Made by a program: the position numbers and the translations under genes. 64,000 bases of DNA from Candidatus Peregrinibacteria bacterium CG11_big_fil_rev_8_21_14_0_20_49_14 (GTDB lineage Bacteria; Patescibacteriota; Gracilibacteria; Peribacterales; Peribacteraceae). The stretch covers positions 17,425 to 81,424 of the forward strand of contig PCVP01000016.1 of NCBI GenBank assembly GCA_002787035.1, given 5' to 3'. A model generated the notes under the pieces. The model was not told the DNA's origin and ran no database searches. It was given only the letters and a program-made list of their open reading frames with translations. Positions 18,368 through 36,492 of this stretch are shown here, piece by piece; the stretch's first letter is position 1; each line of letters starts with the position of its first letter.

Positions 18368-18837
18368 CCTGTTCTTTGAGATGATCGCCCCGCATCTGCG
18401 GGGAGGAACGTCCGGGCACCAATGGAACGCCCTGCGGGTAACGCCCGTCGCCGCGCCATATATACGGTAAAGGCGCAGTAGGACCAGTGCCACAGAGACG
18501 AGTCCCGCACTTGCTGCTTGCAGCATGCGGGGATTGAAACGCCTCGGAGTACCGAGGGTGGTGGCTTGCAATCTGCATTGAACTGATTCAGTTCCGTGCC
18601 TTCGATACCTTCATGGATTTCTAATCCTCCAAGTATCAAAGTGTGAGTTCACGACCGGTAAACTCTTGGCGGTGCAAGGAGGATTTGGGTAGGAGGAATT
18701 TTGCTCTGGTTCCGGAGCACCACCTACTCCTCCGCGTTGAGGTCTGCGAGTAATCGCGATCCCAGATAGATGATCATCACTCCGTACCAAGCAGTGTCGA
18801 AGTACGGAGGACAGAACCCGGCGTACCGAAGGACAGG
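18368..18837 (+). ncRNA. rnpB: RNase P RNA (catalytic subunit)
   Basis: The catalytic RNA that matures tRNA 5' ends. The 5' conserved region 'GAGGAACGTCCGGGC' forms half of P4, and the distal conserved region has 'AGATAGATGATCATCAC' followed by 'ACAGAACCCGGCGTAC', the other half. The central 'GTGCCACAGAGACGA' is also diagnostic. P1 can be drawn as an 11-bp helix, CCTGTTCTTTG (18368-18378) with CGAAGGACAGG (18827-18837), which fixes both ends at ~470 nt. The 3' end is 4 nt from the stop of the convergent histidine kinase gene. Overlapping track ORFs here are spurious. Confidence 0.96.
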
Positions 18838-18841
18838 AACA

Positions 18842-34987: not shown

Positions 34988-35428
34988 CTAGTACTCCTCT
35001 CCTTTGCGTAACTTCTTTCTTATTTCCTTTTCCCGTACTTTTTGCCTCTTATCCAGTCTGGATTTTCCCTTTCCCAAACCAAGAAGTACTTTGATATATT
35101 TCCCTGCTCTCATTTCCAGCGGAATAAGAGAAACACCTCTCTCGGCCAAAGCCGAATTGAGTCGTTCTATATCTCGTGTGGAAAGCAGCAGCTCTCTGTC
35201 TCTTCCGGGATTGTACGTTTCCAGTCCCGATGCATACGGGTACGCAGCGATGGTAGAGCTCTTGAGTACGGGCTTTCCGTGCAAAAAGGAGACATATGCC
35301 CCCGCTAAGTTTGCATGGCCCATACGGCAAGATTTGGCCTCTTGCCCCGTAAGCATAAGCCCGGCCTCCAGAGTATCTGTAATCTCGTAGTCGAATGACG
35401 CTCGCCTGTTTGTAGCCACAGTCTTCAT
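34988..35428 (-). CDS. smpB: SsrA-binding protein SmpB
   Basis: 146 residues from ATG 35428 (MKTVATNRRA). SmpB delivers tmRNA to stalled ribosomes. Family motifs: 'ATNRRASFDYEITDTLEAGL', 'LTGQEAKSCRMGHANLAGAY', 'KYIKVLLGLGKGKSRLDKRQ' and a basic C-terminal tail ('REKEIRKKLRKGEEY'). The track's earlier TTG-type start adds 13 unlikely residues. No tmRNA gene was recognised in the window. A structured RNA candidate is encoded divergently just upstream. Confidence 0.96.
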   Translation of the reverse strand: MKTVATNRRASFDYEITDTLEAGLMLTGQEAKSCRMGHANLAGAYVSFLHGKPVLKSSTIAAYPYASGLETYNPGRDRELLLSTRDIERLNSALAERGVSLIPLEMRAGKYIKVLLGLGKGKSRLDKRQKVREKEIRKKLRKGEEY

Positions 35429-35506
35429 GCTGATTGGCAGTATGCTTGAAATAGCTTTTAGAGCCAATAAAAAGCGGTTATTCGCGGATATCAGACGGGC
35501 AATTAC

Positions 35507-35535
35507 TTGACAGCCTTGACAAATTTCAGTAATAT
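35507..35535 (+). promoter_or_regulatory. Near-consensus promoter of the small RNA
   Basis: TTGACA (35507-35512), 17 nt, TAATAT (35530-35535). Predicted transcription start is ~35542. This is among the best promoter matches in the window, and no long gene lies downstream of it on the plus strand. Confidence 0.8.
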
Positions 35536-35541
35536 TCCCAC

Positions 35542-35700
35542 GTCAGCACTGCTTTCCCTGCGTATTCTTCCCGGTGTGTTTTATGGCAAATCGAGCAGAA
35601 TACGCAGCGGCGAACGCCGATGCGATTCGCAAAATAAGGCATTAAACTGCTGGCACAGATTTCCGGGCTTTTCTGCTCTTGTAGGAAAGCCCGATTCTTT
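35542..35700 (+). ncRNA. Candidate structured small RNA (unassigned)
   Basis: A ~159-nt transcription unit bounded by a strong promoter and a terminator hairpin. The expected 5' end GTCAGCA (35542) pairs with TGCTGGC (35648-35654), enclosing an 11-bp perfect stem CTGCGTATTCT/AGAATACGCAG, a CGGC-GAAC-GCCG hairpin and a GCG-ATT-CGC hairpin. This nested layout is what a stable RNA would show. It also contains a 20-codon ORF (ATG 35583, stop 35643, 'MANRAEYAAANADAIRKIRH') without a Shine-Dalgarno. It does not match tmRNA, SRP RNA or RNase P. A 6S-like regulator or a CPR-specific RNA is possible. Confidence 0.6.
35664..35700 (+). terminator. Intrinsic terminator of the small RNA
   Basis: CGGGCTTT (35664-35671) pairs with AAAGCCCG (35686-35693) across a 14-nt loop and is followed by ATTCTTT. 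Confidence 0.7.
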
Positions 35701-35703
35701 ATG

Positions 35704-36492
35704 CTACCAAAAAAAGAGAGTCGCACATTCTTGCACGGACCGCAGAACACAGGAAAGAATTTCTTCTCCTTTCCAGAGCGCTACAAATGCTCCCAGTGCT
35801 ATGAACGGTCCGAATGCTATGGAACTGTTTCGTTGTATGCGCTTGGTAAGCAGAAGTAACACTGCAACGGCAGCACCGAAAATGTAGGAGGAAAATAGCA
35901 TAACAGTAACGAGCTCCCATGTTCCAAGCAGTGCGCTGATGCCTATGGAAAGCAGTATGTCTCCGCTTCCTATCCATCTCCCCTTACTCACCAGCCACTG
36001 GCCGGCAAAGAATCCTACCCCGAGAGCAAAAGCCCAAGGGTCAAAAACGCCGCGTTCTGCCATAAACAACAGTGCTGTTCCAATGAACGTCGCATTCAAG
36101 ACATCCGGTATGCCCTGTGTTCTTATGTCGATTGCAGCAATAAGAAGCAATGACCACAGTGCCATACTCAGAATAATGGCGGATGTTATGGTTTCGGCAT
36201 GAATCCAAGCGAAGACAAACAGTAAACCTGAGAGTATTTCTACCGTGGGATAGATCACTGAAATATGTTTTTTGCAGTACTGACACTTTCCTTGTAAAAA
36301 CAAGTAACTGAGTACCGGTACGAGATCTGTGGCACGAAGTACATGCCCGCAACTCATGCAAGAGGATCGTCCTCCCAAGCTGCGCCCGCAAGGCATACGC
36401 ATAATGAGCACATTTCCAAAGCTACCGAAAACAAAACCCATAACCAAAAAGCTTAGTGTGAGAAATACCGTCATGAGTCCGGAGCTAAACAT
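35704..36492 (-). CDS. pilD: Type IV prepilin peptidase (leader peptidase/N-methyltransferase)
   Basis: 262-residue polytopic aspartic protease that trims and may N-methylate prepilins. The N-terminal domain has 'GFVFGSFGNVLIMRMPCGRS' and the zinc cysteines 'CMSCGH' and 'CQYCKK'. The two catalytic aspartates are in 'IAAIDIRTQGIPD' and 'GSGDILLSIGISALLG'. It must serve the seven or so prepilin-like genes at 21-28 kb although it lies 8 kb away. ATG 36492 or 36474. It ends 3 nt from the end of the convergent small RNA unit. Confidence 0.95.
   Translation of the reverse strand: MFSSGLMTVFLTLSFLVMGFVFGSFGNVLIMRMPCGRSLGGRSSCMSCGHVLRATDLVPVLSYLFLQGKCQYCKKHISVIYPTVEILSGLLFVFAWIHAETITSAIILSMALWSLLLIAAIDIRTQGIPDVLNATFIGTALLFMAERGVFDPWAFALGVGFFAGQWLVSKGRWIGSGDILLSIGISALLGTWELVTVMLFSSYIFGAAVAVLLLLTKRIQRNSSIAFGPFIALGAFVALWKGEEILSCVLRSVQECATLFFW

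Follow-up and report, generated by a model that had tools for sequence, protein, structure and literature searches.

A candidate structured RNA gene divergent from smpB in the family Peribacteraceae

In the gap between smpB and pilD of Candidatus Peregrinibacteria bacterium CG11_big_fil_rev_8_21_14_0_20_49_14, we found a putative RNA gene (35542-35703, plus strand) with its own promoter, its own intrinsic terminator, a covarying structure and no conserved open reading frame, the features of a standalone intergenic noncoding RNA. Comparative sequence analysis makes it moderately probable that this is a lineage-specific noncoding RNA gene, transcribed divergently from smpB, whose central junction binds a protein. 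As far as its distribution can be detected, the RNA would be specific to Peribacteraceae. Coordinates refer to the window, the whole stretch of 64,000 nt that was analysed. The first-pass annotation of this window had described an orphan structured RNA with promoter and terminator, a description now borne out by the lack of an Rfam match, by strong covariation and by a site and architecture that are kept across the family.

The locus and the predicted fold

The 1.44-Mb host genome is 98.6% complete, and comparison of SmpB places it nearest, among named relatives, to Candidatus Peribacteria/Peribacteraceae bacteria. The RNA unit lies inside a 275-bp gap, and the neighbours named earlier were confirmed as smpB (34988-35428, minus strand; PF01668, E 3.1e-37) and pilD, encoding a type IV prepilin peptidase of the A24 peptidases (35704-36492, minus strand; PF06750/PF01478); recR, also identified, comes after smpB. 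The start codon of smpB is at 35426-35428, so that the RNA gene and smpB diverge from a gap of roughly 110 bp, whereas pilD is convergent and lies beyond the terminator. A sigma-70-type promoter, TTGACA-17-TAATAT, is present at 35507-35535 on the plus strand as first proposed (-35 element 35507-35512, -10 element 35530-35535, 17-nt spacer), from which transcription would start at 35542 and end at about 35700. The intrinsic terminator P4 occupies 35664-35703 (plus strand), with a 13-bp stem at 35664-35693 and the tail ATTCTTTATG; the terminator that the annotation had placed with its end at 35700 is present, but its T-run is weak here (ATTCTTTA) and stronger in several relatives. At the family's RNA loci, TATG or ATATG very often comes right after the U-run of the terminator.

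On the opposite strand, a putative smpB promoter (TTGGCT-17-CATACT, 35439-35467, minus strand) has its -10 element ending 10 nt before the ATG. A CATACT-like -10 element was found upstream of smpB in 37 of 70 relatives, 31 of which have it 6-10 nt before the ATG, and the exact TTGGCT recurs at the expected spacing in several genera; the smpB mRNA would seem to be leaderless. We rejected a cis-regulatory leader or riboswitch, as no co-directional gene lies downstream: the RNA is not the leader of the next gene because that gene, pilD, is convergent, and a leader of the divergent smpB is not the explanation since the strand antisense to the RNA, on the smpB side, folds weakly (z -1.7) and smpB appears leaderless.

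The whole region folds at -63.1 kcal/mol, whereas its shuffled copies average -43.0 (z -5.2; none of 200 shuffles was as good), and the 113-nt core without the terminator gives a z of -3.55. Our structural model closes the RNA with helix P1, joins P1, P2 and P3 tightly in a three-way junction and adds P4 as the terminator hairpin; all features are on the plus strand. The closing helix recognised earlier, P1a, pairs GTCAGCA (35542-35548) with TGCTGGC (35648-35654), and all seven P1a pairs of the model have changed on both sides among 27 homologues. It is continued by P1b, in which TGCTTT (35550-35555) pairs with AAGGCA (35636-35641) in both the MFE and the centroid fold. P2 (35556-35610) begins with two CC/GG pairs (35556-35557 with 35609-35610) and a bulged C35608, proceeds through the previously noted 11-bp stem (35558-35568 with 35597-35607) and ends in an imperfect apical part. 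The two short GC hairpins of the annotation turned out to be a single hairpin, P3 (35611-35629; CGAACGC-CGAT-GCGATTCG), with a bulged A35625 and a tetraloop whose fourth base is U. The junction strand J3/1 (CAAAAT, 35630-35635; consensus AAWA, with one A in 23 of 25 sequences) leads back to P1.

The family consensus has the same order: a small internal loop separates P1a (about 7 bp) from P1b (2-6 bp), and after a single U comes P2, whose foot carries the CC/GG pairs and a bulged pyrimidine. P3, with a tetraloop ending in U, follows without a gap; the A-rich J3/1 then leads into the closing strand of P1, and about 10 nt of linker separate this strand from the P4 terminator. The junction strands are 1, 0 and about 6 nt long. 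P2 is hypervariable in length: it has 7 bp and a 4-nt loop at loci L015 and L066 but exceeds 30 bp at L148 and L152; in some relatives (L140, L144, L148, L152 and L154) it is a very long, near-perfect hairpin of more than 30 bp. Energy folding by itself is no test for the three-way junction, because about 67% of shuffled sequences give one too.

Homologues and covariation across Peribacteraceae

A DNA search gave a congener as the only clear match. We therefore report the family-wide comparison for smpB upstream regions, which were available from 70 family genomes (smpB was recognisable in 71 of 74, one of them at a contig edge). Within the first 260 nt from smpB, a promoter scoring at least 9/12 with TTGAC occurred in 60 of the 70 genomes, compared with 1.15 on average after shuffling, and one scoring at least 10/12 in 56, compared with 0.55. 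Terminators at or above the score cut-off were called at 31 family loci and in none of the shuffles, and the median fold z was -6.0 across the 37 loci with a terminator called. Plain MAFFT misaligned P1 and P2 of distant homologues, for which reason covariance models (R1 to R3) were grown from a two-sequence seed. R2 matched 33 of 74 family genomes at E ≤ 0.1, nearly always beside smpB and including genomes outside the model building; R3 matched the locus studied here (genome G000, contig C43, 52965-53125) with E 4.9e-20 in a whole-genome search, the locus itself being among the 27 sequences from which R3 was built. With R3 and local searches together, about 50 of 70 loci were recognised by our own tally over several scans, and in most of the others the promoter, closing helix, two hairpins and terminator are discernible by eye. 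Neither promoter nor RNA was seen beside smpB in at least five relatives (G021, G076, G027, G067 and G072), so the RNA can disappear or change too far to be recognised.

Strong matches in whole-genome model scans nearly all adjoin smpB, at what is essentially a single site per genome. Where family loci have long flanks, the next gene 3′ of the RNA is in most cases pilD, in convergent orientation; smpB-RNA-pilD is a conserved block in the family, and the position of the RNA is kept where pilD is missing (L073, L077). That most family members keep the RNA and its near-consensus promoter despite the roughly 1-Mb genomes of Patescibacteria argues that it does something important.

The covarying base pairs that the annotation had called for among orthologous regions were found in abundance. 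In the alignment of 27 homologues, which was fitted to the structure, double-sided changes occurred at 32 of 36 pairs, and 91.9% of cells were paired, versus 67.5% in shuffled and 40-45% in slid controls; P4 covaries at 11 of its 12 pairs, and the pairs of P3 covary as well. Because this alignment had been fitted to the structure, the count was repeated within 11 genera on alignments made from sequence only, each using the fold of one member, which gave 143 compensatory cells versus 46-65 for slid partners and 82% paired cells versus 41-44%. Outside the terminator, the most conserved letters are at the junction. G stands in the column of 35609 in all 27 sequences and in the column of 35607 in 26 of 26; the foot of P2 (U-CC / G-Y-GG), the closing C-G pair of P3 and the A-rich J3/1 make up the conserved set. 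The U of the P3 loop is kept in 25 of 27 homologues.

Whole-genome scans of other classes and families yielded no credible model match, an absence outside Peribacteraceae that is provisional because more than 40 genomes were scanned under stricter filters and with only a few candidates for each. The smpB upstream regions of other families likewise gave no model match and no comparable promoter, save a weak one in L170. Individual matches were rejected when they lay inside the dnaG coding sequence (L127), lacked the junction core (L126) or aligned through P1 and terminator-like parts but not through the P2/P3 core (L128-L130). As no homology was found outside the family, we do not argue from breadth that the RNA is essential. 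In some other families of the class (L179, L180, L181, L177), smpB itself contains 1 to 10 in-frame TGA codons, as expected with a UGA-reassigned code.

Protein binding or antisense pairing

We propose that a strong housekeeping-type promoter drives the RNA divergently from smpB and that its own intrinsic terminator ends the transcript, which would be an expressed, trans-acting, structured RNA. The conserved junction, with the U-CC / G-Y-GG element, the C-G pair closing P3 and the A-rich J3/1, would form a protein-binding site, and the RNA would work in a ribonucleoprotein and not by antisense pairing. The protein-bound mode fits because the gene has its own promoter and terminator, the fold is compact, the conserved letters cluster at the junction, no conserved unpaired seed is present and Hfq was not found in 12 relatives.

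sRNA genes typically have a promoter, a terminator and a size of this kind, and P2 differs between species as fast as target-specific regions can, which would suit a trans-acting antisense sRNA in which exposed parts of P2, of J3/1 or of the linker between P1 and P4 pair with target mRNAs without Hfq. We consider this unlikely, as the 27-row alignment contains no conserved unpaired stretch of at least six bases, and thus none long enough for an antisense seed, the RNA in the window is almost entirely paired, and the missing Hfq speaks against it too. The hypervariable P2 could nevertheless carry lineage-specific antisense sequence. A further-reaching version of the protein-bound reading appears rather unlikely to us: that the RNA is a lineage-specific housekeeping component of a ribonucleoprotein in Peribacteraceae, with its protein-binding core centred on the junction, and replaces 6S RNA in part or partners SmpB in ribosome rescue. 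With the covariance model and an exact address, head-to-head with smpB, the RNA can be looked for directly in metatranscriptomes and tested by RNA pull-down.

Relation to known RNAs

Rfam gave no match at the gathering cut-offs for the RNA locus, in agreement with the earlier remark that no recognised small RNA fits, and none that was meaningful at E up to 10 for this locus and 16 homologous loci, where only chance matches to microRNA, U7 and CRISPR-repeat families appeared, far below their cut-offs; the family was not found in Rfam 15. Elsewhere in the window, an RNase P RNA of class A with a long insertion of about 85 nt (18368-18841, plus strand) adjoins a tRNA-Thr gene.

The RNA resembles 6S RNA (RF00013), an RNA that binds RNA polymerase and templates pRNA, in being standalone, of similar size and closed by a stem, with a long second stem in this species. 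In 6S RNA, a single-stranded central bubble separates the closing stem from the terminal stem (PMC4064990). The new RNA differs in having a three-way junction in place of the bubble, a P2 that may be just 7 bp and its own intrinsic terminator, and a 6S homologue was rejected because the model did not match and the place of the bubble is filled by P1b, P2 and P3. The earlier impression of a 6S-like long stem with bulges hence did not survive the family consensus. RF00013 gave no match in the RNA locus or the 16 homologous loci (E up to 10), nor in the host genome (G000) or that of one congener (G001), and this vacancy, together with the single copy, own promoter, closing stem and long P2 of this species, would be consistent with a non-homologous stand-in that binds RNA polymerase and controls transcription. 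The lack of an open bubble and the short P2 of L015 and L066 make such a stand-in quite improbable, and sister families appear to be without this RNA too.

In some bacteria, ssrA is adjacent to smpB. Like tmRNA, the usual RNA partner of SmpB, the new RNA gene adjoins smpB, but unlike tmRNA (RF00023) it has no tRNA-like domain by ARAGORN or Rfam and no conserved tag frame. tmRNA itself was rejected as an identity, as an intact one-piece gene with the tag ADSLVSRANRIAEGVLARMSLTPQFAMAA lies on contig C3 and ARAGORN detected none in the window. A functional adjacency, with the RNA as partner or regulator of SmpB or of trans-translation, could draw on the fact that most family members have the RNA promoter immediately upstream of smpB and pointing away from it, and on the RNA adjoining smpB wherever it is found, even without pilD. 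It has little probability in our judgement: the linkage needs no function because smpB-RNA-pilD is a conserved block, no tRNA-like fold was seen, and the genome has its intact tmRNA elsewhere. The site beside smpB is most simply a matter of conserved gene order, and a link with trans-translation is possible. That the region is a small protein gene or a decayed stretch instead of an RNA gene is extremely improbable, for although a 20-codon ATG reading frame exists in this genome (35583-35645), it is missing from both other members of the genus and conservation, far from being confined to this frame as the annotation had considered, lies in pairs and not in codons.

With bacterial SRP RNA (RF00169, RF01854), the junction RNA we favour as protein-bound shares a small size, a housekeeping-type character and one place per genome, but its P2 and the P2 loop are hypervariable. 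We rejected an SRP RNA identity, as the homologous loci matched no SRP model and contain neither a helix-8 motif nor a conserved tetraloop. SRP RNA was not found in G000 and 11 relatives, some of them from other families of the class, by either model or by the helix-8 pattern, apart from a single pattern match with one mismatch in G002; these negatives are weak because the models also missed the Bacillus subtilis control. In the literature searched, we found no description of a structured RNA from Peregrinibacteria or of a noncoding RNA from Peribacteria, the motif lists of PMC2864571 and PMC11109978 not having been compared individually. In the kind of object and of evidence, the RNA resembles orphan structured RNAs of comparative genomics (for example PMC2864571, PMC11109978), which are likewise intergenic and covarying and were of unknown function at discovery.
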